The position numbers and the translations under genes were made by a program. This document shows, in pieces, positions 263 through 19,527 of a DNA stretch of 21,187 bases (its first letter is position 1; each line of letters starts with the position of its first letter). The notes below the pieces were generated by a model that did not search any database, was not told the origin of the DNA, and saw only the letters and a list, made by a program, of their open reading frames with translations. The stretch comes from a virus. The stretch covers positions 1 to 21,187 of the IMG/VR virus record IMGVR_UViG_3300050120_000114; one strand, 5' to 3'.

Positions 263-290
263 ACCGGGATTACTATTTATTAATTTATGT
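263..290 (-). repeat. Dispersed TAATCCCGGT repeat, copy 1 (minus orientation)
   Basis: Read on the minus strand this copy carries the 3' half AGTAAT-CC-CGGT, which matches copies 2 and 3 exactly. The inner stem (AGTAAT with ATTAAT) is retained. Instead of the usual ACCG outer arm, it has ATCGACAT at its 5' side (ATGTCGAT at 287-294 on the + strand). That alternative arm is shared with the only other minus copy, at 19291-19318. It lies upstream of the first gene block. Confidence 0.75.
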
Positions 291-406
291 CGATAACTAA
301 CTGAAGTTGATCTGACCCTACCTGATTGCTGGCTGACCAACGCGGTGCTTCACGTGTGGCGCGCGAATATGTTATCTTCACGTTAAATTACCAACGGAGA
401 AGGCTC

Positions 407-595
407 ATGGCAGGCTTGATAGAAGGTGCATTGACCGCTAAGATGTTATGGCCTGGATTGAAGAGTTTCATGGAAGACAGATATCCTCCAGGCGGTTCTC
501 CCATATTCTCTTCAAATCTTAAATGGTTCACCACTTACCGAACCTCACCAACCTTCGGTATCTTTCGGATTAAGGGAGCTTCCAATGAAACTTAA
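407..595 (+). CDS. Small protein of unknown function (62 aa)
   Basis: The ATG at 407 is chosen because GGAG lies seven bases upstream, in ggagaaggctc. The frame is open further upstream to 326, but no ribosome site supports an earlier start. The 62-residue product begins MAGLIEGALTAKMLWPG and has neither a clear membrane segment nor a recognised motif. Its stop overlaps the next start by 11 bases, which suggests translational coupling to the helix-turn-helix gene at 585. I do not recognise the family. The case rests on the ribosome site and the overlap, so this could still be a chance frame. Confidence 0.45.
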   Translation: MAGLIEGALTAKMLWPGLKSFMEDRYPPGGSPIFSSNLKWFTTYRTSPTFGIFRIKGASNET

Positions 596-911
596 ATACA
601 CACACGAAGCCATGATCGACTTGATTCTTGCCGAGCCAACCGTCAACAACAAGGAACTGGCAGCGATCTTCGAATACTCGGAAGCCTGGATCAGCCACAT
701 TCGTTGCAGCGACAGCTTCCAGAGCAGGATTGCGGAGCGCAAGAGCCTGTTGGTTGATCCTGCCATTCGCCGCTCTATCGAAGATCGCTTGGCTGGTGTC
801 ACCACCTCTGCCATCAACCGGTTGCAGGAAGTTCTCGACGGTCCCGATGCATCAGCACAGTTCGCCCTCGATGCTCTTGGTGTGGCATCATCTGGCTTGA
901 GGGGGTTGTAA
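585..911 (+). CDS. Helix-turn-helix protein, paralog of the adjacent TerS-like protein
   Basis: A 108-residue protein of possible DNA-binding function. GGGAG lies a few bases before the ATG. Residues 5 to about 104 align without large gaps to residues 64 to about 167 of the next gene product. Shared positions include Y-x-x-E-x-M at the start, KEL-x-x-x-F around 23-29, W-x-x-x-x-x-x-x-x-x-FQS, R-x-x-G near 68-71 and LQE near 80. The middle (NNKELAAIFEYSEAWISHI) reads like a helix-turn-helix: a short helix, a turn, then a recognition helix. The stop overlaps the next ATG by one base (TAATG). It may assist the terminase small subunit or act as a regulator derived from it. Which of the two is the working TerS is an inference. 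Confidence 0.7.
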   Translation: MKLKYTHEAMIDLILAEPTVNNKELAAIFEYSEAWISHIRCSDSFQSRIAERKSLLVDPAIRRSIEDRLAGVTTSAINRLQEVLDGPDASAQFALDALGVASSGLRGL

Positions 912-1579
912 TGGACGACGAGTTTCGTGCCATTGCTCAGAGCATTGCTGACACACCAGCTGTGCAAGAGAAGGTAGTGACCCTTGCCCCTTCAATCGGA
1001 CAAGCAGTGCACGATCAATGGAAAGGTGGACAGTCTGTTGGGCTGGCAAGAGTGAAGCCTGAAGGTGGCATCAGTCTTCCCGTTGCTTCTTCCCTTCGCT
1101 ATTCCCCCGAACTGATGGTTGATATCATCATCAACAACCCGGAATACAGCCCAAAAGAGTTAGGTAATGTATTCGGCAAGCCCCAGTCGTGGGTGGCCCA
1201 AGTCCTGGCATCCGCCAATTTCCAGTCTGCTCTCGACCCACGCCGGGCTGAAGTACTCAATCCAGAGTACGCGATGACTCTTGAGGAGCGGTTCCGGGGA
1301 CTGACTATCCGGTCCCTCACTGTCCTGCAAGAGAAGCTCGAAGCTGGCAAGGCCCTCCCTGACCTAACTGTGGTGAAGATAGCCGAACTCGGGATCAAGG
1401 CACTTGGCATGGGGCAGAAGGTTGCTGAGAAAGCAGCCCCTGATGAAGCTCCTAAGAACTCCAGTGAGATGGTTGCTGATCGAATCATGGCGGCTATGGC
1501 TAAGAGAAAAGCAGCTGAGCAGGGTGATGCAATTGATGTAGAAGCTGTGGAGGTTCCCGATGGCGTGGGTGATAATTGA
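911..1579 (+). CDS. terS: Probable terminase small subunit
   Basis: A 222-residue protein immediately upstream of the large terminase, the usual place for the DNA-recognition subunit. Residues 64-167 form a helix-turn-helix module (SPKELGNVFGKPQSWVAQVL, about 80-99) related to the whole preceding protein. Residues 1-63 are an extra N-terminal arm. The C-terminus (about 172-222) is charged and low in complexity, as expected for a tail that contacts TerL. Small terminases are poorly conserved, so the call rests mainly on position, size and the helix-turn-helix. The ATG overlaps the upstream stop by one base, and the end of this gene contains the start and ribosome site of the small gene at 1560. 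Confidence 0.65.
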   Translation: MDDEFRAIAQSIADTPAVQEKVVTLAPSIGQAVHDQWKGGQSVGLARVKPEGGISLPVASSLRYSPELMVDIIINNPEYSPKELGNVFGKPQSWVAQVLASANFQSALDPRRAEVLNPEYAMTLEERFRGLTIRSLTVLQEKLEAGKALPDLTVVKIAELGIKALGMGQKVAEKAAPDEAPKNSSEMVADRIMAAMAKRKAAEQGDAIDVEAVEVPDGVGDN

Positions 1580-1739
1580 AACTGCCGACTATGGTGTACA
1601 TATCATGCCGGAAGATGAAGAGCATGATCTGGTGGATTGCTCTTGCAAGTTCGCTTTCTTCGAAAGTAGCTGTGCGTTCGTGCATAATTCCTTTGACGGG
1701 CGGGAAGCCTACGAGAATGGCGACAGGAAGCCTCACTGA
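1560..1739 (+). CDS. Small acidic protein between TerS and TerL (59 aa)
   Basis: The ATG at 1560 lies inside the 3' end of the TerS gene, preceded by GGAGG with a six-base gap. Its TGA overlaps the TerL ATG at 1739 by one base, so the frame exactly bridges the two terminase genes. The product starts MAWVIIETADYGVHIMPEDEE and contains Cys27, Cys29 and Cys38 plus four histidines, a set that could bind a metal. I do not recognise the family. The strong ribosome site and the precise overlaps at both ends make a real gene likely. Its position suggests coupled expression with the terminase. Confidence 0.7.
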   Translation: MAWVIIETADYGVHIMPEDEEHDLVDCSCKFAFFESSCAFVHNSFDGREAYENGDRKPH

Positions 1740-3235
1740 TGGCTAATGCCCTCCAGACCTCCCTCAAGAAAACAGTCCTCACAGCGGACCTTATCGAGGG
1801 GTTTGCTGTCACCTACTTGTACTCTGGCTTTGACGAGGCCAAGCCCACTCCTCAATTCCACAGGGAAGGTTGGGAACTCTACAGTGGCCCTGCCTTGCAG
1901 GCATGTGTGATTGCCCCCCGTGGGCATGCGAAATCATCAGCCCTCACCCACGTATTCATCCTCGCCACGTGTTTATTCCGGGTTGAGAGCTACGTAATCC
2001 TCATCTCCACTAACGAAGAACTCGCCATTGAGCACTTGGGCGATATCTCACGGGAACTTACAGAAAATGAAGACCTCATTGCCGACTTCGGAATCAAGTC
2101 GTTTGTCACCAACAGCAAAACTGAAATCATCGTTGAGTTTACTGATGGGCATCAGTTCCGCATACTTGCTCGGGGATCCGGTCAAAAGCTGCGGGGGCGG
2201 AAGTGGAGAGGGATGCGCCCCGGACTTATCGTCTGCGACGATTTGGAAGACGACGAGCAGGTCGAGAACAAAGAACGCCGAGAAAAGTTTCGAAAGTGGT
2301 TCAATCGAGCAGCTATGCCTGCTTTGCGCAGAGGCGGCAAAATACGGGTGCACGGAACCATCCTCCATGAGGACTCTCTACTTGCAAGATTTCACAAGCA
2401 AACCAGAGAAAAGAAATCCTGGGTAGTCCTCTTCTACAAGGCCCACAAGGCCTATGATGACTTCACCGAGATCCTCTGGCCGGAGCAGTTTACTAAGACC
2501 GACCTCCAGGCAATCCGCCAGCGGTACATCGATGACAACGACAGCTCTGGCTACTCCCAAGAGTACCTCAACGACCCTTACGACAACACTGATGGCTACC
2601 TGAAGAAAGAGCAGTTCCATCCAATGGAGGACGAGGACTTCGACAAGGATGTGCAGATTGCTGCTGGAGTCGACTTCGCTATCAGCAAAGCTGCCAAAGC
2701 CAACCGTAGCTCCTTCACTTTTGCTGGGCGGACTGTCGACAACTCCTTGCATTTCTTCATGCAGGATAAAGGGCGGTGGGGGACCGACGAGATCATAGAA
2801 AAGATGCTCGACTATGAAGAGCAGATCCATCCGGAAGTGTGGTTTGTCGAGGATGGGGTGATCTGGAAGGCAATCGAACCGATCTTGCTTGCCGACATGC
2901 GGGCCAGGAACATCTTCCTCAACATCACCCCCCTTTCCTCTGTAAAGGACAAAGCCACCCGTGGCCGCTCTTGGCAGAAGCGAATGAAATCCAACACATG
3001 CAAGTTCGACAAGGAAGCCGAGTGGTACGCGGACTACGAGCACGAGTGCCTGCGGTTTACAGGCTATTCCGACTCCATTCTGGACGACCAATTCGACAGC
3101 TCTGCTATCGTGTCTCGTGGATTTGACCTGCTCCCTATGATGACGGAAGAAGACTTCATGTCGGAAGAGGAGTTGGAAGCACAGCGCACTGACCCTCCCG
3201 GCAATCGTGGCCGTAACGAAACTACAGGATACTAG
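1739..3235 (+). CDS. terL: Terminase large subunit (packaging ATPase/nuclease)
   Basis: This protein powers DNA packaging into the procapsid and cuts the concatemer. Its 498 residues have the usual two-part layout. The ATPase part shows a Walker A-like loop PRGHAKSS (60-67), a hydrophobic strand ending in acidic residues, LIVCDDLE (163-170), as Walker B with catalytic Glu, and a coupling motif near HGTILHED (205-212). The RNase H-like nuclease part shows GVDFAIS (310-316, Asp312), WFVEDG (368-373) and an acidic cluster near DSILDDQFD (445-453), which would supply the metal-binding acids. Length is normal for the family. The start overlaps the upstream 59-residue gene (TGATG), and the portal gene begins two bases after the stop. 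Confidence 0.93.
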   Translation: MANALQTSLKKTVLTADLIEGFAVTYLYSGFDEAKPTPQFHREGWELYSGPALQACVIAPRGHAKSSALTHVFILATCLFRVESYVILISTNEELAIEHLGDISRELTENEDLIADFGIKSFVTNSKTEIIVEFTDGHQFRILARGSGQKLRGRKWRGMRPGLIVCDDLEDDEQVENKERREKFRKWFNRAAMPALRRGGKIRVHGTILHEDSLLARFHKQTREKKSWVVLFYKAHKAYDDFTEILWPEQFTKTDLQAIRQRYIDDNDSSGYSQEYLNDPYDNTDGYLKKEQFHPMEDEDFDKDVQIAAGVDFAISKAAKANRSSFTFAGRTVDNSLHFFMQDKGRWGTDEIIEKMLDYEEQIHPEVWFVEDGVIWKAIEPILLADMRARNIFLNITPLSSVKDKATRGRSWQKRMKSNTCKFDKEAEWYADYEHECLRFTGYSDSILDDQFDSSAIVSRGFDLLPMMTEEDFMSEEELEAQRTDPPGNRGRNETTGY

Positions 3236-3237
3236 AT

Positions 3238-5532
3238 ATGGCAGCATACATTGCACAGCAGGATTCGGTCAGTGCGCCGCCAGAGCCAGAAATCAAGAAG
3301 AAGTTCGATCTGGATGAGATCCTTAACAGCCCCAATCTGGCGGATAAGCTCGACAAGGACCTTCGGCAGGCTCTGGGCAAGTGGGTTGTCGGTGGATACG
3401 TGAAGGACCTGTCCAGCCGGACTCAATGGGCTGAACGCCATGCAGCAGCTATGAAGCTGGCCCTGCAGGTGAAGGAGATGAAAACCTTCCCGTGGACGGG
3501 GGCAAGTAATGTCAAGTTTCCGCTGATTACAGTAGGGGCTCTGCAATTCCTAGCTCGTATTTCGATACTGACCAAGGGCAACCATCTGGCCAGCTTCCGC
3601 ATCCAGGGGGCTGATCCTGAAGGGCAGAAACTTGCTAAAGCGAAGCGTGTCTCCGCCCACATCAACATGCAGCTGACTGATGACGACCCCGACTGGGCGG
3701 ACATGGATGAGAGCTGCAAGTTCGCAGCTAGCTTGCTCGGGTCTGCTTTCAAGAAGACCAGCTATGACGCTGTCGCGGGGATCAATGATAGCGAATTCGT
3801 CCCTGCACAACACTTCGTTGTTGATTACAACTGCAAGAACCTTGCTACGGCCTCCCGCTATACTCACGTCATCCATATGGATGCTAACAAGCTCACGGAG
3901 CGGGTCAAGCGGAAGATATTCATCAAGGAGGAGAATGCAGCTAACTCTTCCCCAGATCAGGTGATGGTTAATTTACTGGAGCAGGCTGCTAAAGAGGTGG
4001 CCGGATTATCCCCAAATGCCGAAACGGAAGATGTACGGGTACTGGAACAGTATTGCTGGATTGATCTGGATGGTGACGGTTACCGCGAACCTTACGTGGT
4101 TAGTGTTCGAGAAGACACCGGGCATCTCTATCGGATTGTCGCTCGTTTCTATGATGACGGTAGTGTTCACCGTCGTTTTGATGCTCGTCAACGTCAGTTC
4201 GAGAACCTAGCCAACCTAGCAACAGACCCGGCACAGCAATCTGTCCTCGAACTCCGCGCTGAGGCCGTCCGTAACAGCAAGGACAATACTGTGGTGCGTA
4301 TCGACCCGGTACAGTTCTTCACCAAGTACACGTTCGTACCCTCTCCTGATGGGGGGTTCTACGGATTGGGGCTTGGTGCGTTGCTTGGGCCTGTCAATGA
4401 GGCTGTGTCTACCCTCATCAACCAGCTCATCGATGCTGGCACGATGCAGACCACTGCTGGTGGCTGGATGGCACGTGGTGCCCGCATGAAAGCAGGGAAA
4501 ACAAGCTTCGATCCGTTTGAATGGAAGCATGTGGATTCGACTGGGGATGATCTGCGGAAGAGCATCATGCCCTTGCCAGTGAATGCTCCTAGTGATGTGC
4601 TGTTTCAGTTGCTCGGAGTGCTCATCCAGTATGGAGAGAAGATCAGCTCTGCAACTGACATCATGACCGGCGTGTCTCCTGGTCAGAACACTCCCGCAAC
4701 TACCTCCCAGGTGACTGTCGAGCAGGGCATGATGCTCTTTTCCGGCATCCATAACCGCATGTATCGGGCATTCAGACATGAGCTGACCATCTACTACAAG
4801 CTCAATCAGACCTTCATCCAGCATTCGCCGAAATTTTGGGAGCTTACCCAGGGACCTGACGCGATTCTGCAGGAAGATGACTACCGGCAGAACAACTTCC
4901 GGGTGTTCCCTGCAGCTGATCCGACTGTAGTAAGCATGTCGCAGAGGAAAGAGAAGGCTGCTCAGCTAGTGCAGGCTGCCCTTACCCCCATTGGGGCCCT
5001 CTGGGACAAGTCAGTCGTCTCTCGCAAGTGGCTGGAAGCTAACGAATGGGATGTTGAGGAGATCTTCCCTGATCCGCAAGGTCCGCGTGCCATCAAACCA
5101 CCGGTTGATCCGAAGTCTGCTATCGCGCAGGCCAAGCTGCAGCAAGAACAGCAGGAACATCATGACGACATGATGCTTCAGGTGGCTGAATTGCAGGGCA
5201 AGCTCAAACTCAACGATGCTGAGATTCAGAAACTCCGGGCAGAGGCGGAGAAGCTGAGTGCGCAAGCGGATTCGGAACCAGTGAAGACGCAAATTGCTGC
5301 TCTTGATGCGCAAATTGGGGCTAGGAAATCCCATAACGACACCATTCTGCAGGCAGCTGGCATGATGCTCAAGGGGCACGGGGAGAAACACAAAATCGAA
5401 AAGGGCCACCACGACATGCTGATGGATGTACAGGATCGGTTGACTGAGCGTGAGGCAGCGAAGAGGGAAAATCTGGCAGCACCAACCGGTGGGGCAGGGC
5501 AAACTACTCCTTCCTCAACTAGCGGAGCCTAA
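3238..5532 (+). CDS. Portal protein
   Basis: The dodecameric portal forms the DNA channel at one capsid vertex and docks the terminase and later the adaptor. The protein has 764 residues, close to the size of large P22-type portals. Family-like features include FPWTGASNVKFPL (84-96) near the N-terminus and ATDIMTGVSPGQN (472-484) before a long helix rich in large residues. From about residue 625 to 740 the sequence is a Gln, Glu, Lys and Ala-rich predicted coiled coil, like the barrel helix in P22. AGGA lies about eight bases before the ATG. It directly follows TerL, the standard order. Confidence 0.9.
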   Translation: MAAYIAQQDSVSAPPEPEIKKKFDLDEILNSPNLADKLDKDLRQALGKWVVGGYVKDLSSRTQWAERHAAAMKLALQVKEMKTFPWTGASNVKFPLITVGALQFLARISILTKGNHLASFRIQGADPEGQKLAKAKRVSAHINMQLTDDDPDWADMDESCKFAASLLGSAFKKTSYDAVAGINDSEFVPAQHFVVDYNCKNLATASRYTHVIHMDANKLTERVKRKIFIKEENAANSSPDQVMVNLLEQAAKEVAGLSPNAETEDVRVLEQYCWIDLDGDGYREPYVVSVREDTGHLYRIVARFYDDGSVHRRFDARQRQFENLANLATDPAQQSVLELRAEAVRNSKDNTVVRIDPVQFFTKYTFVPSPDGGFYGLGLGALLGPVNEAVSTLINQLIDAGTMQTTAGGWMARGARMKAGKTSFDPFEWKHVDSTGDDLRKSIMPLPVNAPSDVLFQLLGVLIQYGEKISSATDIMTGVSPGQNTPATTSQVTVEQGMMLFSGIHNRMYRAFRHELTIYYKLNQTFIQHSPKFWELTQGPDAILQEDDYRQNNFRVFPAADPTVVSMSQRKEKAAQLVQAALTPIGALWDKSVVSRKWLEANEWDVEEIFPDPQGPRAIKPPVDPKSAIAQAKLQQEQQEHHDDMMLQVAELQGKLKLNDAEIQKLRAEAEKLSAQADSEPVKTQIAALDAQIGARKSHNDTILQAAGMMLKGHGEKHKIEKGHHDMLMDVQDRLTEREAAKRENLAAPTGGAGQTTPSSTSGA

Positions 5533-5535
5533 TTG

Positions 5536-5811
5536 ATGAAACTCCCCCAGGACTACGGCCCAGAGGATTTCCTCGGCTGGTATCACAACCCAATCACCGA
5601 GTGCTTTCTGAATAGCCTGCGAGATGACAAGCAGGAGATAATGGAAGCGTGGGCCAGGCGTTCCTACACAGGTGAAAACGAGGGGCAGACTCTGCAGCTG
5701 AATGCTGTGGGGTTGGCTCAAATCAAAACGATTGACGAGTTGCTGCATAATCTGGAAGATAGTGCTGAGTCGGCACGGCAGCAGATTGCAGAACATAACA
5801 GGAGTAAGTGA
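5536..5811 (+). CDS. Small protein of unknown function (91 aa)
   Basis: The ATG at 5536 has GGAG about eight bases upstream, inside the end of the portal gene. A TTG three bases earlier is in frame but less likely as a start. The product begins MKLPQDYGPEDFLGWYHNP and is acidic. Its C-terminal half reads as a helix (IDELLHNLEDSAESARQQIA). No catalytic motif is visible and I do not recognise the family. The stop sits just before the co-chaperonin ATG at 5813, and the GGAG in its last codons is that gene's ribosome site, so the two are probably co-translated. Confidence 0.75.
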   Translation: MKLPQDYGPEDFLGWYHNPITECFLNSLRDDKQEIMEAWARRSYTGENEGQTLQLNAVGLAQIKTIDELLHNLEDSAESARQQIAEHNRSK

Positions 5812-5812
5812 G

Positions 5813-6214
5813 ATGGAAGGTTTCAGCAATGCGCAAGATGCTCTCGAATATCTTCAGCCCGGCTGGCGTTCATACAAAAAAGGCCCCAACCCAGCTAACA
5901 ACTCCGGATTCCGCGCCACAGGCCACCGCATCCTGCTCATAACAGAGGAAGTGGAAGAAGTAACTTCCGGCGGGATTGTGCTGGTAGCAAAGACAGTTGT
6001 GGCTGAAGCCAACCGTGCCCAGGTCTGTACTGTGCTGGAAATCGGCCCTGATGCCTGGGCGGACAAATCCACAGACTACTGCGAGCTTGGTGATCGAGTC
6101 CTCATCGGCCAGTATGTGGGCAAGATGCATGAATCTCCGGTTGACGGGAAGACCTACCGGTTTGTCAGTGACCTGGACATCATCAGCCCCCTGCCCCCGA
6201 AGGAAGCCAAATGA
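5813..6214 (+). CDS. GroES-like co-chaperonin
   Basis: This 133-residue protein resembles Cpn10/GroES, the lid of the GroEL folding chamber. Residues 37-115 follow the GroES order: GHRILLITEEVEEV (37-50, first strand), TSGGIVLVAKT (51-61, where the GroEL-binding mobile loop lies), VCTVLEIGPDAW (71-82), LGDRVLIGQYVGKM (92-105) and DGKTYRFVSDLDII (111-124). An extra segment of about 35 residues precedes the fold. Phage T4 gp31 is a known case in which a phage lid replaces GroES to fold the coat protein, and the location here between portal and scaffold suggests a similar job. The start at 5813 is set by GGAG in gaacataacaggag. A longer frame from 5702 overlaps the upstream gene and lacks support. 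Confidence 0.85.
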   Translation: MEGFSNAQDALEYLQPGWRSYKKGPNPANNSGFRATGHRILLITEEVEEVTSGGIVLVAKTVVAEANRAQVCTVLEIGPDAWADKSTDYCELGDRVLIGQYVGKMHESPVDGKTYRFVSDLDIISPLPPKEAK

Positions 6215-6402
6215 GCACGCAGATCAACCTGCACGTCCGCCTCATTACCAGCGACTATCGTGCTGCCGATATCGTAGACAACCATGCAGACATTCTCAAA
6301 GCAGCTCTACTAGATTCTGTCGATAGGATCTTGCGGCTGCATGGGCTGCACAACCTCTTTATTCAAAGTGTCGGTGGTCCGGAGATTGTGACCCTGCCGT
6401 AG
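6211..6402 (+). CDS. Small protein of unknown function (63 aa)
   Basis: The start overlaps the co-chaperonin stop (ATGA), indicating coupled translation. The product starts MSTQINLHVRLITSDYRAAD and reads as strand, helix, strand (LHVRLIT, ADILKAALLDSVDRILRL, LFIQSVGG). There is no recognised motif. A copy of the dispersed repeat begins 11 bases after the stop, so this is the last gene of its block. Its function is unknown. Confidence 0.7.
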   Translation: MSTQINLHVRLITSDYRAADIVDNHADILKAALLDSVDRILRLHGLHNLFIQSVGGPEIVTLP

Positions 6403-6412
6403 GTAGTTTTCA

Positions 6413-6440
6413 ACCGTTATTACTAAATAGTAATCCCGGT
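6413..6440 (+). repeat. Dispersed TAATCCCGGT repeat, copy 2
   Basis: Arms ACCG (6413-6416) and CGGT (6437-6440) flank inner arms ATTACT (6419-6424) and AGTAAT (6429-6434), with an AAAT loop and a TT/CC internal mismatch. It lies in the gap between the small gene ending at 6402 and the scaffold gene. There is no U-run, so it is not a standard terminator. A regulatory role is inferred from its recurrence at block boundaries. Confidence 0.85.
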
Positions 6441-6456
6441 AAATAACCGTAGTTCC

Positions 6457-6470
6457 ATAACTGGAGTTAT
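6457..6470 (+). promoter_or_regulatory. Scaffold ribosome site presented in a hairpin loop
   Basis: ATAAC (6457-6461) and GTTAT (6466-6470) are complementary and leave TGGA as the loop. The GGAG at 6463-6466 is the only good Shine-Dalgarno site for the scaffold ATG at 6475. The stem is short and A/T-rich, so any effect on translation is uncertain. Confidence 0.4.
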
Positions 6471-6474
6471 AGCA

Positions 6475-7392
6475 ATGAGCTTTTTGCTGCGTAAGCTGTT
6501 GGGCCATCATGTAATGGCTGAAGAGGAAGGAGCCGGCGGGGGCGATGACCACCTCGTTAAGGAGCAGGAGCTCGAAGCCTCCCGCAAGGGCTGGATTCCC
6601 AAGCACAAGTACTCCGGTCCCGAAGGCAAGTGGAAGGATGCAGCTACCTTTCTAGCCGACGGAGCCAAGTTCAACAGCCGCCTGCAGGACGAACTCGGGG
6701 CGGTCAAGCGAGAGCTTGCTGACTTCAAGGGCACCGCCAAGCAGTTCGCAGACTTCCAGCAACGGCAGATCGAAGCTCGCGACTCCCAGATTGGTGACCT
6801 CGTACGCGACCTCAAGCGCCAGCAACGGGAAGCCATTCGTGATGGCAATGATGAAGCTGCTGATGCCATTGACGACCGTATCGAAATCCTCAATGACGAA
6901 CGAGCCAACGTCAAACAGCAGATTGAAAAGACCAAACAAGCTGCCCCAACGACAGTCCGCACAGACATCATCGATGAGAACGGGAACACTACTGATCCGG
7001 GAGTTCGGGCGTGGATCGATGATGGCAACCAGTGGTTCAATGACAGCAAGCCCATGCGCGACTACTGCTTTGCACTCGCTAACGAAGCCATCGCTGCAGG
7101 TGAAACCCGGCGTGGTCGCCCCTTCCTGGACCTGATGCGCGAGAAGATGGAAGAAGCCTTTCCCCTCAAGTTCAAGAAGGCCGGCGACCCGACCGCTCGT
7201 GGCAGTATGACCGAAGCTGGTGGTGGTGGTGCTGGTGGAGGCAAGAGCTACTCGGTCAATGACCTCCCTGAAGCTGATCGTGAGCTGATGAAAACCGGCA
7301 TCCGTCAGGGCTGGACCTCAGAAGCGACCTTCCTGAAGAATTACTTCAGCGACGAGCCTCACATCCACCGTTCAGCAGAGAAGAAGAAATGA
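6475..7392 (+). CDS. Probable capsid scaffolding protein
   Basis: The scaffold guides coat assembly and then leaves the procapsid. The protein has 305 residues. Residues 30-62 resemble the GWIPKHKYSGPEGKWKDAATF motif seen near the N-terminus of many podovirus scaffold-like proteins. Residues 65-155 are highly charged and helical, a likely coiled coil. Residues 248-256 are a glycine-rich linker, and the end is basic (AEKKK), like the coat-binding tail of P22 scaffold. Its position between portal and coat is the standard one. The start has GGAG eight bases upstream. The stop overlaps the next gene (ATGA). Confidence 0.82.
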   Translation: MSFLLRKLLGHHVMAEEEGAGGGDDHLVKEQELEASRKGWIPKHKYSGPEGKWKDAATFLADGAKFNSRLQDELGAVKRELADFKGTAKQFADFQQRQIEARDSQIGDLVRDLKRQQREAIRDGNDEAADAIDDRIEILNDERANVKQQIEKTKQAAPTTVRTDIIDENGNTTDPGVRAWIDDGNQWFNDSKPMRDYCFALANEAIAAGETRRGRPFLDLMREKMEEAFPLKFKKAGDPTARGSMTEAGGGGAGGGKSYSVNDLPEADRELMKTGIRQGWTSEATFLKNYFSDEPHIHRSAEKKK

Positions 7393-7592: not shown

Positions 7593-7634
7593 CCCTTCCA
7601 GCATTTCCCTTTTTCTTACCTACAGGCTATTCTC

Positions 7635-8237: not shown

Positions 8238-8244
8238 GCATCTT

Positions 8245-8261
8245 GGGGCTGGGTCGGCCCC
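8245..8261 (+). other. GC-rich hairpin ahead of the decoration-type gene
   Basis: GGGGC (8245-8249) pairs with GCCCC (8257-8261) around a seven-base loop. No U-run follows, so termination is unlikely. A stem in this position could protect the 5' end of a processed messenger RNA. A similar, shorter GGGC/GCCC hairpin (8916-8927) precedes the coat gene. Confidence 0.45.
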
Positions 8262-8291
8262 TCTCAACAAACCCTTTTCAGGGAGACCACA

Positions 8292-8943: not shown

Positions 8944-9858
8944 ATGCCAGGTATTGTCAATACAGGCTCCTACCCCAAGGGACTATGGGAAGGGGTCAAG
9001 AGCTGGTGGGATTCGGCAGCGCCTTCCGCGCCCGAGTTTGCCCCGATGATGTTCCGCAAGTACGATTCGGAGAAGAACTACGAAGAGTATGTGCAGTCAG
9101 TCGGTTTGGGTCTGGCTGTGTTCAAGCCTGAGTCGCAGCCGATCAGCTACGACACGATGCAACAGGGTTTCATCACCCGTGGCACCAACGTCGCATACGG
9201 TCTGGGGATCATCGTCACGCACGAAGAGTTGAAAGACAACTTGTACGTGAAGCTCACCCAGGGTCGTGTGGAACGGCTGCGCCGCGCATTCAAGGAAACG
9301 AAGAACATCAACGCTACCAACGTGTACAATCGGGCTTTCAATGCCGCGTATGCTGGTGGTGATGGCGTTTCGCTCCTGAACGTTGCCCATCCGAACTTCT
9401 CGGCAGGCACGTGGCAGAACAAGATGGCGATTGATGCTGCGCTCAGCCAGGCAGCTGTCGAAGACATGCTCATCTTGATGATGCAGTCGAAGGACGACCG
9501 CGGGTATATCGAGCCGTTGACCGGGGACAAGCTGATCGTCCATCCGAACAACATCATGAATGCTGATCGGATTCTGAAGACCAGCAAGGCAGTGGGCAAC
9601 AACAACAACGACATCAATCCGATTGAGACCGAAGGGTATCTGTCCGGTGGTCGGTTGTCCAACCCGTATCTGACTGCCTCGGACCCGTGGTTCATCACCA
9701 CGAACATCCAGGACGGGATGATCTGGCAAGAGCGTGAGCCGCTGGAAATCTGGGAAGATAACGACAGTGATACACGTAATTACAAAGTAGGGGCATACGA
9801 GCGATACACCTTCCTGTGGGCTAACCCCCGTGGCCTGTTCGGTTCCAACGCTGCATAA
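8944..9858 (+). CDS. Major capsid (coat) protein
   Basis: The shell-forming protein, 304 residues. AGGAG lies seven bases before the ATG, one of the strongest ribosome sites in the window, which fits the most abundant virion protein. Features consistent with an HK97-fold coat include an N-terminal region with SVGLGLAVFKPES, a long charged helix (about 97-125, LKDNLYVKLTQGRVERLRRAF), the phrase LLNVAHPNFSAG (149-160), and DKLIVHPNN (194-202) before a loop-rich segment. It follows the scaffold at the usual place and is followed by a repeat copy and a terminator-like hairpin. No separate protease gene is seen, which also fits a P22-like plan. Confidence 0.87.
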   Translation: MPGIVNTGSYPKGLWEGVKSWWDSAAPSAPEFAPMMFRKYDSEKNYEEYVQSVGLGLAVFKPESQPISYDTMQQGFITRGTNVAYGLGIIVTHEELKDNLYVKLTQGRVERLRRAFKETKNINATNVYNRAFNAAYAGGDGVSLLNVAHPNFSAGTWQNKMAIDAALSQAAVEDMLILMMQSKDDRGYIEPLTGDKLIVHPNNIMNADRILKTSKAVGNNNNDINPIETEGYLSGGRLSNPYLTASDPWFITTNIQDGMIWQEREPLEIWEDNDSDTRNYKVGAYERYTFLWANPRGLFGSNAA

Positions 9859-9868
9859 CGAGTAATTA

Positions 9869-9896
9869 ACCGCTATTACTTTTTAGTAATCCCGGT
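9869..9896 (+). repeat. Dispersed TAATCCCGGT repeat, copy 3
   Basis: Arms ACCG (9869-9872) and CGGT (9893-9896) enclose ATTACT (9875-9880) and AGTAAT (9885-9890) around TTTT, with a CT/CC mismatch. The outer stem extends by TTA/TGA with a T-G wobble (9866-9899). It begins 10 bases after the coat stop and is the first element of a chain of alternative hairpins that leads into a terminator-like stem. Confidence 0.85.
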
Positions 9897-9911
9897 TGAA
9901 AACCGCTCTCT

Positions 9912-13549: not shown

Positions 13550-13562
13550 AAGGGAGTTTCCC

Positions 13563-13590
13563 TCTCACTTTACTTTATGTTAATCCCGGT
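13563..13590 (+). repeat. Dispersed TAATCCCGGT repeat, copy 4 (degenerate left arm)
   Basis: The right half GTTAAT-CC-CGGT (13579-13590) is intact, but the left arm has lost ACCG (TCTC here). Outside it, GGGAGTTT (13552-13559) and AAACTCCC (13594-13601) form a perfect eight-pair stem, so the overall hairpin is kept by different bases. The copy lies between the gp10-like gene and the cupin-like gene. Confidence 0.75.
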
Positions 13591-13618
13591 GAAAAACTCC
13601 CTCGAAATATCTGACCAC

Positions 13619-14035
13619 ATGAACACCATGCTCATGCTCGATGCAGCTAAATATGGTGATCTGGAATTGGCTGAACAATATGGGTTGAGGATGGCCCAGA
13701 CAGAATGTCGCGTGGAGCATCTCTTCGGACCGGGGTTTTGTGTTCGAGAGATGCACATCCCTGCAGGGACATTCGTCATCGGCCACGCGCACAAAGAACC
13801 TCTAGCCAACATGCTCGTGCAGGGAACCCTCATCGTCCAGTCAGAAGGCCGCTGGTCTCGTATGTCAGCCCCCTTATTTTTCGTGGGAGCCCCTGGCCGC
13901 AAGTCCGCTATAGCTCTAACCGATGCCATCTGGCAGAATATTCTCGTAACCAATGAAACCGACCCTTCAGTTATTGAAGCCCAGTTCGTTGAAAAAAGCC
14001 CTCAATGGCTTGCAAAACAGGAGCAATTAAAATGA
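13619..14035 (+). CDS. Cupin-like protein at the P22 gp26/gp14 position
   Basis: A 138-residue protein with a small beta-barrel pattern. From residue 31, VEHLFGPGFCVREMHIPAGTFVIGHAHKE leads into MLVQGTLIV, the typical first cupin motif with His56-x-His58. The usual Glu three to four residues later is absent, so metal binding is uncertain. Similar single-cupin proteins occur in phage structural clusters. Its role is unknown; it may be a head-tail or assembly protein. The frame is open from 13577, but that ATG lies inside a repeat copy. The ATG at 13619 is preferred although neither start has a clear Shine-Dalgarno site. The stop overlaps the next start (ATGA). Confidence 0.65.
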   Translation: MNTMLMLDAAKYGDLELAEQYGLRMAQTECRVEHLFGPGFCVREMHIPAGTFVIGHAHKEPLANMLVQGTLIVQSEGRWSRMSAPLFFVGAPGRKSAIALTDAIWQNILVTNETDPSVIEAQFVEKSPQWLAKQEQLK

Positions 14036-14640
14036 GTTTCGCAGCTGTTGCGGTAGGTGTAGGGGCTTCCGTAGCTGGAGCGGTGGCCACTTCGGCGCTC
14101 TCGGGCGGCGGAAATAGCAGTAGCGGGGGTTCGCAAGCAGCCGCAGCCGCTGCAGATCCTTTTGCATCTCAGCGAGGGCAGTATCAGCAACAACTGTCCG
14201 ATCTCATAAACAATCCTTCCTCGATCACTTCGACCCCTGGGTATGCCTTCGGCTTACAGCAGAGCCAGAATGCTGTAGAAGGGAGTGCCGCAGCTAATGG
14301 CATGGTAAACAGCGGCAATGTCCTTTCTGCCCTCTCCACCAATGCCCAGGGCTATGCCTCCACCCAGCTCAATAACCAAGAGTTGCTTCTCGCCCAACTC
14401 TCCGGGGCTAACGTCGGCTCTCCTGGAACTGCCGGTCAGATTCTGCAAGGCCAGAATAATAACAACCAGGCAGCTGCTGGCACCCTCGGCAGTCAGATCG
14501 GGGGAGCAGTCACTTCCGGAGCTAACAGCCTGTACCAGGGGTTCAACTCCGGAGTGAATGGCACCTATGCTGCTGGAGACACCAGCTCCTCGGTCAATTC
14601 TGACAATCAGGGTGTGTACTACGATAACGGCATCAACTAA
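14032..14640 (+). CDS. Probable ejection protein, P22 gp7-like (202 aa)
   Basis: In P22, three ejection proteins travel with the DNA into the host. This first candidate has 202 residues and starts MSFAAVAVGVGASVAGAVAT, a glycine/alanine-rich hydrophobic N-terminus that could insert into a membrane. Residues 42-114 (DPFASQRGQYQQQLSDLI and the following TPGYAFGLQQSQNAV, NSGNVLSAL, YASTQLNNQ) match a common pattern in phage DNA-transfer proteins. The tail is low in complexity, rich in Gly, Asn and Ser. The start at 14032 is set by AGGAG eight bases upstream. A longer frame from 14005 has no ribosome site. Confidence 0.75.
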   Translation: MSFAAVAVGVGASVAGAVATSALSGGGNSSSGGSQAAAAAADPFASQRGQYQQQLSDLINNPSSITSTPGYAFGLQQSQNAVEGSAAANGMVNSGNVLSALSTNAQGYASTQLNNQELLLAQLSGANVGSPGTAGQILQGQNNNNQAAAGTLGSQIGGAVTSGANSLYQGFNSGVNGTYAAGDTSSSVNSDNQGVYYDNGIN

Positions 14641-14651
14641 GGAGAGTCATC

Positions 14652-16184
14652 ATGGCAGGATTTGGCGGATTCCTCCAAGGGCTGGGGCTGGCAATTGGCA
14701 ACGACATGATTCAGGGGCAGAACTACCAGAACAAGCAAGCTGATATTGAACTGAAGAAGACGGAAGTCCAGCAAGCTCAGATGCAGCAGCAGCAGATGCA
14801 ACAACAGATGAAGACCCAGAAGGACATCGGGGCGTTTATCAAGTCCCAGACTGATCTGGAAGGGGCTGACGCGGCCCTGCCTATGAATCAGGCAAAGATG
14901 TACAGCAAGGCTGCAGGGCTGGCGGCTTCTCAGGGGGATCTTGCATCTGCAAAAGAGATGACGGATTTGTCAAAGCAAGCCACTCAGGAAGGCGTGGAGC
15001 AGACAAAAGCCCTGGCAGTACAACAGGCCCAGAAGAAAGAAGCCCTGGCCAACATTGCTGACAACACCCCGGAACAGCCCACGCGTGAGCAATCAAATGC
15101 TTTGGTGAAGGCTGCTGTCGAGGCTGGTACTGACCCCACGACAATCCCTATGCCGGGCACTCCTGCCTTCCTTACGTGGAAGAACGAGCAGAAAATGGCT
15201 GGTATGGATTCGGCAAAGAAAGCTGAATTCGTGCAGAAAGCAGCCGACATCAAGATGAACCGAGATATGAAGTGGCAAGAGCACACAGATAATGTGGATT
15301 TGCGTCGGGCTACGATGCAGCAGACTGCATCCTTCCGAGAAGCTCAACTCGGGATGGAGCGACAGAGGCTGGCTGATAGCGAACAAGCTCGAAAGGATCG
15401 ATCCCAACAGGCTCCCTCACACCTTGAGACTGGTGGGGCTATCTGGGAATTTGATCCTGATATGAAGCTGAAGTCAGAGAGAAATGCTAATGACCCTCGA
15501 TATGCAAAACTTGGGAATAAGGTCAGCACCACGCAAGAAAACAACACAGTAGCCACCGGAAAGGCAGCTGCTAACGTGTCGCGCGACCTGGATCAGATGG
15601 GCCGTTTCCCTACCGGAACCGCCAACAGCCCCTTTGCTCATATCACTGATCACGACTTCCTTTCCTCTATCGAGAAGGTTGGTAGTAATGCACTCACTCC
15701 AGAGCAGATTCAGATGTTCGGCACGTCAACGGGCGGTATGTCGACGGAACTGGGTCGTGTTCTCACTATCGGCGCGGGCCGTGGGGCTAACCAATCCCTC
15801 ATCAATGAGGTAAAAACATTCACCACACCAAATGCCGGGGATACGAATCTGGAAGCCGCCTACAAGATGGCTACTGCCGCCCAGATGGTTAAAACTACAA
15901 TGGAGAATACTCCTCCTCCGAATGATCAGAGTGTGAAGAAAGGTTGGGATGCTACTCTGGCGAAGGTTAGTTCATTCCCTAGCCCTGAAGAGATCTTAAA
16001 GGCAGCTTCAGGCCCGCAGAGAAAGCAACTGGCAACCCTGGATGGGACGTACACCCAGCTGCTGGGTAAGGTGCAAGATGCTGTTACGAAGAACAACTCT
16101 TCCGAGCCTTTACCTGGCGGTGGGGATGTTGGAGCAGGAACTAACGCGCCTCCGCTTCCTGCTGGCTTTACCTTGGATAAATAA
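14652..16184 (+). CDS. Probable ejection protein, P22 gp20-like (510 aa)
   Basis: A 510-residue virion protein with AAGGAG seven bases before ATG. Residues 2-18 are glycine-rich (AGFGGFLQGLGLAIGND). Residues 28-60 are a Gln/Met-rich helix (TEVQQAQMQQQQMQQQM). A long, helical, Ala/Gln/Lys-rich part follows. The C-terminus ends in a Pro/Gly-rich tail. These features fit the second ejection protein in P22-like clusters, although sequence identity to any one family cannot be judged by eye. The stop overlaps the next start by one base (TAATG), so the second and third ejection proteins are coupled. Confidence 0.7.
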   Translation: MAGFGGFLQGLGLAIGNDMIQGQNYQNKQADIELKKTEVQQAQMQQQQMQQQMKTQKDIGAFIKSQTDLEGADAALPMNQAKMYSKAAGLAASQGDLASAKEMTDLSKQATQEGVEQTKALAVQQAQKKEALANIADNTPEQPTREQSNALVKAAVEAGTDPTTIPMPGTPAFLTWKNEQKMAGMDSAKKAEFVQKAADIKMNRDMKWQEHTDNVDLRRATMQQTASFREAQLGMERQRLADSEQARKDRSQQAPSHLETGGAIWEFDPDMKLKSERNANDPRYAKLGNKVSTTQENNTVATGKAAANVSRDLDQMGRFPTGTANSPFAHITDHDFLSSIEKVGSNALTPEQIQMFGTSTGGMSTELGRVLTIGAGRGANQSLINEVKTFTTPNAGDTNLEAAYKMATAAQMVKTTMENTPPPNDQSVKKGWDATLAKVSSFPSPEEILKAASGPQRKQLATLDGTYTQLLGKVQDAVTKNNSSEPLPGGGDVGAGTNAPPLPAGFTLDK

Positions 16185-18610
16185 TGGCTGATCAATCGTG
16201 GACTCCAGTAGAACAGACAGCAACCGGCCCAGATGGCTCGAAGATGGCTCTGGTAGGGGGTAATTGGCAACCTGCAACGCAGACAGCAACAGGGCCGAAT
16301 GGTTCGAAAATGGCTATGCTTAGCGGGGAACCTGCGGCAGCAACTCCCGCAACCCCTGCCAGCAAGAAAGATCGGATGGATGCTGCTATCAAGGGGCTGA
16401 AGCCGGATCTGAAGATGGATACTGAAGGGAAGCCAGTGCCAACGCCTACGGTGAAATCGGCTCTGGAGGCTATCGGTACTTCCACTGCCTTTGGCGGAGC
16501 GCTCGGGGCGGCCTCTCCCGAAATCCTCACCGGAGCTGGCTATGCGCTTAGCTTTATCCCTGATGTTGGACCGACGATCGGAGCGGCTCTCATGGAGGCA
16601 GGCACGGCAGCTAGAGGGGCTAGAATGGCTTACGCAGCCAGTGGTGCACTGTCCGGTGCGATTGGGGAGACCGGAGGGCAGGTTGTTGAGGCCGCTGGTG
16701 GAAGCAAGGGCACCGCAGATGCGGCTAGATTGGTTGGAGGGATGGCAGCTGGTCCGGGGGTAGCACTGGCGAGCAAAGCCAAAGGGCTATTCGGGGCAGT
16801 GGCAGAGAAGCTGGGAATGGTGGCTGCTACGGATGCGAATGTGACGAAGGCAGCAGCTACTCTCCGTGCAGTCGAAGATGCTGGAGTTCCTGCAAATGCC
16901 TGGCATCAGACACTTCAGCATGGAGCAGATATCAATCTCCAGGATACTGCTAAATCCGGTGAGAAAGTTATGGTGGAGGCTCGACAAAGGGCTGCTGATA
17001 TAGCATCACAAGACCCGAAAGCAGCTGCAAAGGTTCTTGATGAAGGGCAGAAACGTGTCGACCAAATGATGGCTGATGCGCGTAAGCAAGCAGCAGACCT
17101 CAATAAGGCTTCAGGTAACCGAATGGCTACTGCAGGAAAAGTGCTGGCCCAGGCAGAACCAGCATTGCGAGTGGTAGGAACGCCCCGGTTAGAGTCTGAT
17201 ATCGGTACAGAACTGCAGACAGCAGTGAAGTCTCAACACGATGCAGCAATTCAAGCCCGCACGGATGCCTACAATAATCTGAAGACACAGCGGGATTCGA
17301 TAGTAAAGAGCAAAGAACAGGCCGGGCAGACGGTCAGCCAGACTGAAGGGATGAAGGATCTGAAGAGCTACATCAAGGGGAAGACCGATTCGGCGGCATC
17401 TCCGAGGCAGACTACGGATCAGGGCACGCTCCGAGTGTATGGGCAGGTGAATGAGGCCCTGCAAAATCCCTCATTTGAGGCTCTGGATCAAGTACGGAGG
17501 AAACTGGGTGATGTGCTGGGCGGTAGGGATGTGGAAGGGTATTCGGCAGTCGGGAAGGATGTGGCGGGAAAGCTCTACGCGAAGATCAGCGACATCCAGA
17601 AAGAGTTCGTGGGCAAAGATGCCTCTGGAACCAACCTTCAACAAATGATGCAGGAGCAATACCATGACGCGTCGCTTGGGCTTAGAAAATTTGGCACGGG
17701 CGCAGGTGGCAAGGCAGCGGCAATTGACCGAGTTGACCCGGAGAGATTTGCAGCCGACCCCAAGGGAATCCCAAAGAGCTTCTTCTCCAGCCAGCAATCC
17801 GTGCGGGACTTACGTGAACTCACCGGAGATTCGGGATTGGTGCAACGAGCCGGGAGCAGTTATGTCAGCAGCCAATTACGGGGAATGTCAGCCAAGCAAG
17901 TGGCAGATTACGCTGAAAAGAATGCTGATTGGATGCGGGAGGTTCCTGGATTGCAGAAAGGGGTAGCCGACTATGCAACGAGACTTGGAAAGATTGAAAC
18001 GACAGCAGCAAAGGCTGGCGCGAGCGGAGAAACCCTGGCAAAAAGGGCAGGGGCTGTCCTACCGGAAGCTGAGGGAGTTGCGGCGAAGGAAAGGGCTGGG
18101 ACGATTAGCCGAGTGGGAGATATGGCAGAGCAATCGGTGAAGAACCAGGGGAGGATGCTGGAGGAAGGGGGGAAGGCAGCAGCACAGGCAACAAAGGAGG
18201 CGCAAGCTCCGGCACAAGGATTGAAGGCAATTTTGAATGGAGGGGAGCGGCCAGAGGCGGTACGTGACCTTCTTTTGAATGGGAAGCCAGAGCAGACCCG
18301 GCTGGCGGCGAGGATCTCATCACAGACGGCTGAAGGGAGAAAGCAACTGGAAGGATCAGTGAGGCAGATCACAGCGGATATGTCGGCAGGGACTTTGCAG
18401 AAGAGCTGGAATGCGCGGTTGAAACCGATGCTCACGGATGGCCGTATGATTTCACCTGATCGGATGAAGGCTCTGACTAAGGACGTGGAAGGGCTGCTGA
18501 AAGCGTACTCGGGTAAGCCTCCGGTGACGTTGGTGCAGAGGTTGATCCTGGGGGCTGTTGCGAGTGGTGGGGGTAATTACGTCGGATCAGATTCCCGTGA
18601 GGGTAATTAA
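16184..18610 (+). CDS. Large ejection protein, P22 gp16-like (808 aa)
   Basis: The largest gene here and the last of the ejection set. The N-terminus carries two 22-residue repeats (residues 6-27 and 28-49), each with W-x-P and QTATGP-D/N-GSKMA. Residues about 95-200 are rich in Gly and Ala with hydrophobic stretches (GALGAASPEILTGAGYALSF, LVGGMAAGPGVALAS), plausible for membrane contact during DNA entry. Most of the remaining sequence is helical and charged. No lytic transglycosylase motif is apparent. The weak ribosome site and the TAATG overlap indicate coupling to the 510-residue gene. The stop codon lies inside the left flank of repeat copy 5. Confidence 0.72.
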   Translation: MADQSWTPVEQTATGPDGSKMALVGGNWQPATQTATGPNGSKMAMLSGEPAAATPATPASKKDRMDAAIKGLKPDLKMDTEGKPVPTPTVKSALEAIGTSTAFGGALGAASPEILTGAGYALSFIPDVGPTIGAALMEAGTAARGARMAYAASGALSGAIGETGGQVVEAAGGSKGTADAARLVGGMAAGPGVALASKAKGLFGAVAEKLGMVAATDANVTKAAATLRAVEDAGVPANAWHQTLQHGADINLQDTAKSGEKVMVEARQRAADIASQDPKAAAKVLDEGQKRVDQMMADARKQAADLNKASGNRMATAGKVLAQAEPALRVVGTPRLESDIGTELQTAVKSQHDAAIQARTDAYNNLKTQRDSIVKSKEQAGQTVSQTEGMKDLKSYIKGKTDSAASPRQTTDQGTLRVYGQVNEALQNPSFEALDQVRRKLGDVLGGRDVEGYSAVGKDVAGKLYAKISDIQKEFVGKDASGTNLQQMMQEQYHDASLGLRKFGTGAGGKAAAIDRVDPERFAADPKGIPKSFFSSQQSVRDLRELTGDSGLVQRAGSSYVSSQLRGMSAKQVADYAEKNADWMREVPGLQKGVADYATRLGKIETTAAKAGASGETLAKRAGAVLPEAEGVAAKERAGTISRVGDMAEQSVKNQGRMLEEGGKAAAQATKEAQAPAQGLKAILNGGERPEAVRDLLLNGKPEQTRLAARISSQTAEGRKQLEGSVRQITADMSAGTLQKSWNARLKPMLTDGRMISPDRMKALTKDVEGLLKAYSGKPPVTLVQRLILGAVASGGGNYVGSDSREGN

Positions 18611-18637
18611 CCGTTATTACTATTTTGTAATCCCGGT
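18610..18637 (+). repeat. Dispersed TAATCCCGGT repeat, copy 5
   Basis: ACCG (18610-18613) and CGGT (18634-18637) enclose ATTACT and TGTAAT around ATTT. The outer stem extends through AATTAACCG (18605-18613) with CGGTTGATT (18634-18642), nine pairs including one T-G wobble. It overlaps the last codon of the large ejection gene and marks the end of the structural cluster. Confidence 0.85.
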
Positions 18638-18697
18638 TGATTAGTAACTGGCTGGAGATTGTAGAGATTTTACGTGAAGTGGGGCGGCCTCGCCTAC

Positions 18698-18771
18698 GGC
18701 TCGCGAATCGGAGGGGTACTACCGGAGCGGGGGGTTGCCTCCGGGGGAGTGATGGTAGGGATTCGCGAGCC
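18698..18771 (+). ncRNA. Strong structured RNA candidate downstream of the ejection genes
   Basis: GGCTCGCGAATC (18698-18709) is exactly complementary to GATTCGCGAGCC (18760-18771), a 12-pair stem. Inside, CCGGAG (18722-18727) pairs with CTCCGG (18739-18744), and CTACC (18719-18723) can pair with GGTAG (18754-18758), competing for two bases. No U-run follows, so it is not a classic terminator. The + strand is shown, but the fold is almost symmetrical and the transcribed strand is not known. No known RNA family is recognised. Confidence 0.5.
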
Positions 18772-18891
18772 TCAATTGATTTCTAACCCTACCTATCAGC
18801 CCAATTTCCACCCCCTTCTACCCCTTGCTTTACAGCAGCATCCATCTACTGTAAGCTCTCTTCAACTGTTCTCTAACTTGTTGAGGTTCTT

Positions 18892-19287
18892 ATGCCCCGC
18901 GCCCGATTTAACCACAAGCTCATTCGAATTCCTATTCAACCTGCAGTTGCTTATGATCTTGCTTATTACTATGACCCCAGGAAGGATGAGGAGTTGCTGA
19001 AGAAGCACGAGAAGAGATTGGGAGAATTGGCCATACAATTCATGAAGGTACTGTTGCTTAAGCGCCGTCTCTCTCCGAAGCAAAGACTGGTGGTCTTGTT
19101 CCTGGAATTCCCCGATGATCTGCGGCTGAAAGCTATTCAAGCTTGTATTAAAAGGGGCAGCAAACAATGGATGGAGAAGTTTCGAGAAGATCCGAAGGCT
19201 GCTTATAATGAAGAGCTGGCCGCTGTAGAAAAAGCAATTCGAGATATCGATTGCGAAGCAAAGATTATGGAAACTGTAGGTGGGTAA
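18892..19287 (+). CDS. Protein of unknown function (131 aa)
   Basis: GAGG lies five bases before the ATG. The 131-residue product starts MPRARFNHKLIRIPIQPAVA and is strongly helical and charged, with alternating Lys/Arg and Glu/Leu (ELLKKHEKRLGELAIQFMKVLLLKRR). It has no signal peptide or catalytic motif. It is isolated, with non-coding sequence on both sides and a minus-oriented repeat copy starting four bases after the stop. It may be a small regulatory or nucleic-acid-binding protein, but no family is recognised. Confidence 0.65.
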   Translation: MPRARFNHKLIRIPIQPAVAYDLAYYYDPRKDEELLKKHEKRLGELAIQFMKVLLLKRRLSPKQRLVVLFLEFPDDLRLKAIQACIKRGSKQWMEKFREDPKAAYNEELAAVEKAIRDIDCEAKIMETVGG

Positions 19288-19290
19288 TCG

Positions 19291-19318
19291 ACCGGGATTA
19301 ATAAAAAGTAATGTATGT
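19291..19318 (-). repeat. Dispersed TAATCCCGGT repeat, copy 6 (minus orientation)
   Basis: On the minus strand the right half reads ATTAAT-CC-CGGT and the left inner arm ATTACT. The outer left arm is ACATAC rather than ACCGTT, preceded by ATCG, like the copy at 263-290. A different outer stem forms here: AATCGAC (19286-19292) pairs exactly with GTCGATT (19317-19323). It lies just after the 131-residue gene. Confidence 0.78.
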
Positions 19319-19345
19319 CGATTATTTTTATAGGGGAAAACCCTA

Positions 19346-19374
19346 TTGACAGGTTAGTTTGACGACACTATAAT
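19346..19374 (+). promoter_or_regulatory. Perfect sigma70-type promoter
   Basis: TTGACA at 19346-19351 and TATAAT at 19369-19374 are separated by 17 bases, the exact bacterial consensus. The expected start of transcription is about 19380-19382, at the edge of a G/C block (19379-19394). It points toward the PurD-like gene about 325 bases downstream and implies recognition by unmodified host RNA polymerase. It is the only consensus promoter noticed in this window. Confidence 0.85.
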
Positions 19375-19399
19375 CTGAGGGCCCCCCGGGCCCCACCGG

Positions 19400-19447
19400 C
19401 GGCTAGGGTCGATTGTTCTGTTTTGTAGCCGTGCACGGGGCCGTGCA
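19400..19447 (+). ncRNA. Two adjoining leader hairpins
   Basis: CGGCTA (19400-19405) pairs with TAGCCG (19426-19431) around a 20-base loop. Immediately next, TGCACG (19432-19437) pairs with CGTGCA (19442-19447) around GGGC. The two helices abut without a gap and could stack end to end. They begin about 20 bases after the expected start of transcription. They may belong to the PurD-like leader or to a separate small RNA; no U-run terminator is seen directly after them. Confidence 0.45.
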
Positions 19448-19499
19448 AACCAACTAGTAGTCTCCTACATCCCCGCCCAGTCTAGTTTCCGAGTTTTTA

Positions 19500-19527
19500 A
19501 CCGTTATTACTTTTTGTTAATCCCGGT
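19500..19527 (+). repeat. Dispersed TAATCCCGGT repeat, copy 7
   Basis: ACCG (19500-19503) and CGGT (19524-19527) enclose ATTACT and GTTAAT around TTTT. The outer stem continues as GTTTT (19493-19497) with AAAAC (19530-19534), joined by a T-G wobble and one mismatch. This copy lies inside the probable transcript from the 19346 promoter, so here at least it would be present in RNA. Confidence 0.83.

Follow-up and report, generated by a model that had tools for sequence, protein, structure and literature searches.

The seven-copy repeat in the window (the whole 21,187-base stretch of DNA analysed here) belongs to a dyad of 44 bp built from two equal half-sites, and the repeated 10-mers are the cores of these dyads. 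Such sites recur about every 3 kb in the genomes of a large group of uncultivated phages. The site is a symmetric double-stranded DNA element with independent arms, and its architecture is fixed while the half-site sequence diversifies by lineage. Rather than forming an RNA hairpin or a phage promoter, it most likely serves a small DNA-binding protein, made by the phage, as a docking site. Judging from sequence comparisons, we put at slightly above one half the probability that the dyads are distributed operators of a phage regulator, with a ribbon-helix-helix (RHH)-like protein as the candidate binder, which would read them as a dimer or tetramer so that transcription is set unit by unit. We infer both the identity of the binder and the transcriptional output of the dyads.

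Structure of the repeated site

The window is a virus record, and its genes represent the structural half of a podovirus-like phage, including those for TerL, the portal, a GroES-like protein, a Mu-gpT-like capsid protein, the head-closure protein Hc3 and an ATP-grasp protein. The 10-mer TAATCCCGGT has seven exact copies in the window, against a mean of 0.02 expected from 100 dinucleotide shuffles. All seven were found at the coordinates and on the strands given in the original prediction, which had also correctly placed them in gaps or at gene ends and noted that no U-run lies 3' of the copies. The seven sites in Table 1 are based on matches to the 10-mer, a scan with the symmetric PWM and a gene-context table. 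The locus of site 3, after the capsid gene, is also occupied in four related genomes (G002, G004, G006 and G016), and a post-capsid dyad is likewise present in the phage MW202489. No obvious gene was seen at 19327-19491, between the inverted dyads 6 and 7, where a small RNA might be located. Adjacent homologous small-terminase-like genes occupy positions 585-911 and 911-1579 of the window, and the same pair was found again in relatives.

Table 1. Dyads and a sigma70-type promoter in the 21,187-base window.
Feature	Position	Strand	Context
Site 1, 44-bp dyad	255..298	-	upstream of TerS-like gene (585); 10-mer 263-272; centre 276.5; PWM score 48
Site 2, 44-bp dyad	6405..6448	+	centre 24 nt past a stop, 48 nt before scaffold-position gene start (6475)
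Site 3, 44-bp dyad	9861..9904	+	centre 24 nt past stop of major capsid gene (8944-9858)
Site 4, 44-bp dyad	13555..13598	+	centre 28 nt past head-closure (Hc3) gene
Site 5, 44-bp dyad	18602..18645	+	outer box overlaps stop codon of 808-aa gene (16184-18610)
Site 6, 44-bp dyad	19283..19326	-	overlaps stop of 131-aa gene (18892-19287)
Site 7, 44-bp dyad	19492..19535	+	194 nt upstream of ATP-grasp gene (19707)
Sigma70-type promoter TTGACA-17-TATAAT, perfect	19346..19374	+	12/12 matches; between sites 6 and 7, upstream of ATP-grasp gene

From the centre outward, each half-site reads N-N-A-[GT]-T-A-A-T-C-N-C-G-G-T-N-R-R-W-A-A-C. The outer boxes, GTTWW/WWAAC, belong to the unit, and conservation ends at +/-23 in gene-oriented alignments. 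The 28-bp unit described originally was thus too short, and what had appeared as an invariant 10-mer with a stem interrupted by a two-base mismatch is a near-perfect half-site opposite a degenerate one, with no pairing-type excess of matched bases in 84-90 non-redundant copies. A symmetric profile with a 22-position half-site, fitted on whole contigs of relatives, detected 123 dyads in 371 kb of sequence from 13 related contigs; 1.1 Mb of dinucleotide shuffles yielded no hit. Three near-complete genomes (G001, G002 and G016; 43.0, 45.7 and 45.8 kb among the three) contained 14 dyads each, and the overall density was about one dyad per ~3 kb of genome. A scan of IMG/VR with TTACT-N6-TAATCCCGGT yielded 87 stretches, many of them with multiple copies. 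A literature search with the 10-mer returned unrelated papers only.

An imperfect hairpin can be drawn for each copy, directly 3' of stop codons, as would be expected of an RNA structure for transcript processing, termination or protection; RNA processing was one of the three roles proposed originally. However, the arms vary independently within a copy, with no position matched significantly above chance in 84 non-redundant copies. In 35 divergent copies, standard pairs accounted for 72.2%, compared with 73.1% when partners were shuffled. A conserved RNA stem would give excess pairing, which was not seen, so that RNA pairing was rejected on both arm independence and the formal pair count. There was neither covariation nor a U-run, no Rfam family matched the element, and the element is kept within the coding sequence of UDG-PolA, a position at which cleavage or termination would leave no intact message. 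The RNA hairpin, including the processing site of the original prediction, is already disfavoured and in our view extremely improbable. Base frequencies in the outer box, a region that played no part in the selection of copies, were nearly equal between the arms. Intrinsic terminators were rejected as well: the A/T tracts lie on the wrong sides and none of 17 scan hits builds a terminator from the whole dyad, although one short hit (13552-13566) overlaps site 4.

Placement, spacing and orientation

Using gene calls from a home-made predictor, we assigned 94 of the 123 copies to gaps between tandem genes, 10 to divergent and 9 to convergent gaps, 9 to predicted genes and 1 to a contig edge. Two of the nine in-gene copies sit in tiny, doubtful ORFs, while the other seven represent a single site at codon 191 of UDG-PolA. 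The centre of the dyad is usually located 18-30 nt past a stop codon, and the next start often lies 38 nt from the centre. Several loci recur across genomes: one ~132 nt upstream of TerS, one following MCP and one following Hc3, the gap between Sak4 and p151, and the convergent junction of early and late genes. Random scatter inside genes or a lack of conservation among relatives had been named as arguments against a regulatory role; instead, copies of the motif were distributed over whole genomes of the relatives at conserved gene boundaries, and the sole regular in-gene copy marks a conserved codon.

This in-frame copy was present in all seven genomes with a complete UDG-PolA gene. Identical residues were encoded by identical codons at a frequency of 75% within it, whereas other windows averaged 45% and reached at most 67.5%, indicating that the dyad DNA is kept beyond the need of the protein. 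The polymerase gene of MW202489 has a dyad at residue 181, in the same alignment column as residue 191, with a diverged sequence. We also considered that G019 has separate UDG and Pol genes with a dyad between them, but the DNA shows an HNH-like insertion, so that G019 was left out as evidence for a history of gene fusion. The HNH-endonuclease-like ORF, at about 13610-13908 of L163 (G019), seems to interrupt UDG-PolA, and a dyad (centre 13665) lies at the 5' edge of this ORF. Further HNH genes are located near dyads in G001, G003 and G004.

The downstream arm was the stronger one in 37 of 75 tandem sites, which means that there is no directionality relative to transcription, and gene-oriented alignments revealed no flanking motif beside the dyads. 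Oriented promoters and oriented stoperators were rejected on this lack of directional asymmetry and of a flanking motif. The proposal that the repeats are promoters for a phage RNA polymerase is not supported, given the absence of directionality, the copy between convergent gene blocks and the separate sigma70 promoters; promoters of T7-like single-subunit RNA polymerases are asymmetric and point towards the genes they precede, unlike the symmetric dyad. An RNA polymerase gene was not found among those proteins of G001 and the window that were scanned. The perfect sigma70 promoter of the window lies between sites 6 and 7 and the strong sigma70 promoters in G001 lie away from dyads, which argues that the dyads are not host-type promoters. 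Most dyads do not adjoin recognisable sigma70 promoters, and this limits a reading of the sites as operators at promoters.

The dyad could also be read as two overlapping, divergent promoters, possibly activator-dependent, with GTTTTC-N17-A[GT]TAAT on each strand recognised by a modified host RNA polymerase. On either strand, 17 bp indeed separate the outer box of one arm from the inner box of the other, and a start codon often follows 38 nt downstream. Against this, the C-N-C-G-G block in the middle is conserved and symmetric, and the hexamer is without the A at position 2 of TATAAT. Together with the copy between convergent blocks, the perfect sigma70 promoters elsewhere and the missing asymmetry, this makes a promoter improbable.

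Dyads are spaced more evenly than random in three genomes, with coefficients of variation (CV) of 0.45-0.53 compared with 0.9 (p = 0.009, 0.002 and 0.003). Such spacing is in line with the main rival to distributed operators, an architectural or partition-type site at which a bound protein bridges, condenses or segregates the genome in a parS/Noc-like or nucleoid-like manner with little effect on promoters. The disregard of gene direction, with tandem, divergent, convergent and in-gene copies, points the same way, as does a ParB_N-methyltransferase with similarity to Noc/ParB that is encoded in the early module. This protein is, however, a methyltransferase fusion, no ParA-type ATPase was found among the scanned proteins, and sites of the ParB type are palindromes of 14-16 bp, shorter than the 44-bp site, that are read by a ParB HTH with a CTPase partner. 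The precise siting past stops, often 38 nt before starts, also fits a role in gene expression. We consider the architectural reading rather unlikely, although a serious competitor. The fusion of a ParB N-terminal domain to an N6/N4 DNA methyltransferase (L099 4502-5872 in G001, and homologues) is conserved with the dyad-bearing early module.

Association with the early module and a candidate binding protein

A search with the early protein p201 identified MW202489, a complete 40-kb phage with a homologous early module (Exo, Sak4, p151, ParB-MTase, UDG-Pol, p201 and RHH). Its structural genes did not match those of G002, except for TerS-like ones. Eight 44-bp dyads of the same geometry were found in this phage, with the diverged code GTAAACCSGSCGG, one of them 22 nt past its own, different capsid gene. 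Conversely, three known phages (L095-L097) share structural genes with the dyad-bearing phages, among them the capsid gene at 42-47% identity; they contain no dyads according to the symmetric profile, no copy of the exact element and no homologue of RHH, p201, Exo, Sak4, ParB-MTase or UDG-Pol. Since MW202489 retains the early module and the dyad while L095-L097 are without both, the dyad follows the early module.

Two further repeats were observed in known phages. In the Alcaligenes phage QDWS535 (L095, OK172329), the 14-bp palindrome TCCTAAYRTTAGGA occurs about 10-15 times, mainly within 25208-48105 and mostly where genes of the early region meet; being 14 bp and different, it was rejected as the same element. 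The Microcystis phage Mel-JY34 (L139, PP438425) contains a homologue of the RHH-like protein, and no dyad of this type was found in it. Its intergenic repeats GTGTAATTC/GAATTACAC, at 35372-35403, 44031-44062 and in other gaps, one of them a palindrome with 12-bp arms, may be a diverged counterpart of the dyad.

A profile of p201 retrieved 139 viral contigs, whereas neither this profile nor that of the RHH-like protein had a match in 84,980 bacterial and archaeal genomes; the lack of any such prophage suggests that the dyad-bearing phages are virulent. An iterative search of 65 sampled p201-bearing loci found two to four dyads in most of them, above the best of six shuffles; four had no dyad above shuffles and a few more were marginal. 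These dyads have in common the core TWAC-N6-GTWA and the outer boxes, with lineage-specific middles; a generic profile served as the seed, so that the inner and outer boxes are partly imposed but the symmetry of the lineage-specific middles is not.

The right flank of some copies is shared between phages whose left flanks differ, consistent with recombination at the element and hence with a mobile, REP/MITE-like palindrome spreading from one gene boundary to another or with a homology linker for module shuffling. However, positions are kept between phages while the sequence of the element shifts genome-wide in concert, and such concerted change at fixed positions requires a trans-acting reader. 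The scanned proteins included no transposase. The mobile-palindrome reading is already disfavoured, and we consider it very unlikely.

The candidate for this reader is an RHH-like protein of 66-79 aa encoded in the early module, at 4146-4355 of L080 for the window type and at 35133-35330 of MW202489, with the consensus MGRPRKT...VRxGxxLPxDLxxRLxxHL...PHGxKSxFxExLxREyF. It is predicted to adopt a beta-alpha-alpha structure (model pLDDT 71), for which Foldseek returned no fold match in the PDB; proteins of the type associated with the window had no RHH hit in Pfam or NCBIfam, and the homologue in L139 matched the NikR and RHH_3 models weakly. Dyads were present in all 18 RHH-bearing loci found, and other proteins of the early module co-occur with dyads to the same extent. 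For the 45 contigs with all five proteins compared, the distance between RHH-like proteins was the best correlate of the distance between sites at the inner box (r = 0.38) and the outer box (r = 0.36), ahead of p142, p201, p222 and p155. At the middle positions d9-15, p201 (0.35) and p142 (0.31) correlated better than the RHH-like protein (0.19). Because all five proteins share ancestry, these correlations fall short of proof, and they lend moderate support to the RHH-like protein as probably at least one reader of the dyad. The fold predicted for p142, considered as another binder, had no match in the PDB. The proteins p222, p201 and p77 (L098 11378-12046, 13848-14453 and 19711 onward in G001, and relatives) end in a common short peptide similar to VNTDDLLKELG, possibly a docking tail for one partner protein, and p155 begins with a similar LDDLLEES stretch.

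Each site comprises two identical half-sites, built from the inner box GTAAT, a lineage-specific middle and the outer box RAAAAC, to which, under the operator reading, a dimeric or tetrameric phage protein would bind, most likely the 70-aa RHH-like protein of the early gene module. As this early protein builds up, it would fill all ~14 sites at the boundaries of gene blocks, and the occupied dyads would set transcription unit by unit through repression, roadblock or long-range silencing. Of the three roles proposed originally, the genome-wide recurrence at conserved boundaries favours that of operators bound by a phage regulator.

Relation to known distributed sites

RHH repressors of the Arc/MetJ/NikR type are small beta-alpha-alpha proteins that bind as dimers or tetramers to symmetric operators, typically one or a few of them. 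The phage protein resembles these in its predicted beta-alpha-alpha structure, and the independent, equal half-sites of the dyad are as expected for the symmetric site of a dimeric protein; it differs in its ~14 sites, its GRPRK N-terminal arm and its weak sequence similarity.

The genomes of mycobacteriophage L5 and cluster A phages contain more than 20 stoperators, dispersed copies of the repressor site, many of which lie in short gaps between genes; each is an asymmetric 13-bp sequence that follows the direction of transcription and is recognised by a monomer (PMC9283540). The many genome-spread intergenic copies are alike in the two systems, but the dyad is 44 bp long, symmetric and without orientation, and no prophage was found for the two early-module proteins in the 84,980 genomes; stoperators bring about repressor-dependent termination in a lysogen. 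SPBRE of the temperate phage SPbeta, a 15-bp repeated intergenic element predicted in silico, was later shown to be the site of the master regulator MrpR, a repressor with a tyrosine-recombinase fold (PMC10516654). Both are repeated intergenic phage elements; in our phages no recombinase was found among the scanned early-module proteins and the binder is probably the RHH-like protein. The T1-like phages T1, Stevie and TLS have 22-bp intergenic repeats of unknown function, in 16-20 copies in virulent genomes of ~50 kb, which are reported to be asymmetric and oriented with transcription (PMC4319613, PMC11447400). These resemble the dyads in their many, mainly intergenic copies, but their sequence is different and no co-varying binding protein was proposed for them. 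The KorB operators (OB) of RK2 are used by a global regulator both close to and distant from promoters across one replicon, and are 16-bp sites bound by a ParB-family CTPase clamp (PMC11790492), unlike the 44-bp site described here with its favoured RHH-like candidate. None of the L5, SPBRE, T1-like and KorB systems consists of a 44-bp dyad that is rewritten across lineages, as the putative distributed operators of these phages are.

A broader picture, which we regard as possible but doubtful, is that a large, wholly uncultivated and apparently virulent group of phages divides its genomes into ~3-kb units by ~14 private symmetric addresses, whose architecture is fixed and whose code is rewritten along with a small DNA-binding protein. 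This would be an operator or chromosome-organising system that matches no described family of sites. Most known cases of distributed phage operators come from temperate phages, in which they keep the prophage silent. In contrast, no prophage was found here, yet the sites are spread genome-wide, kept in a coding gene and changed in concert across many lineages. If the operator reading is true, these phages would provide dozens of natural matched pairs of sites and proteins for studying how the specificity of a binder and its ~14 sites changes jointly, and the intergenic repeats that lack an explanation in T1 and other virulent phages would gain a concrete, testable function.
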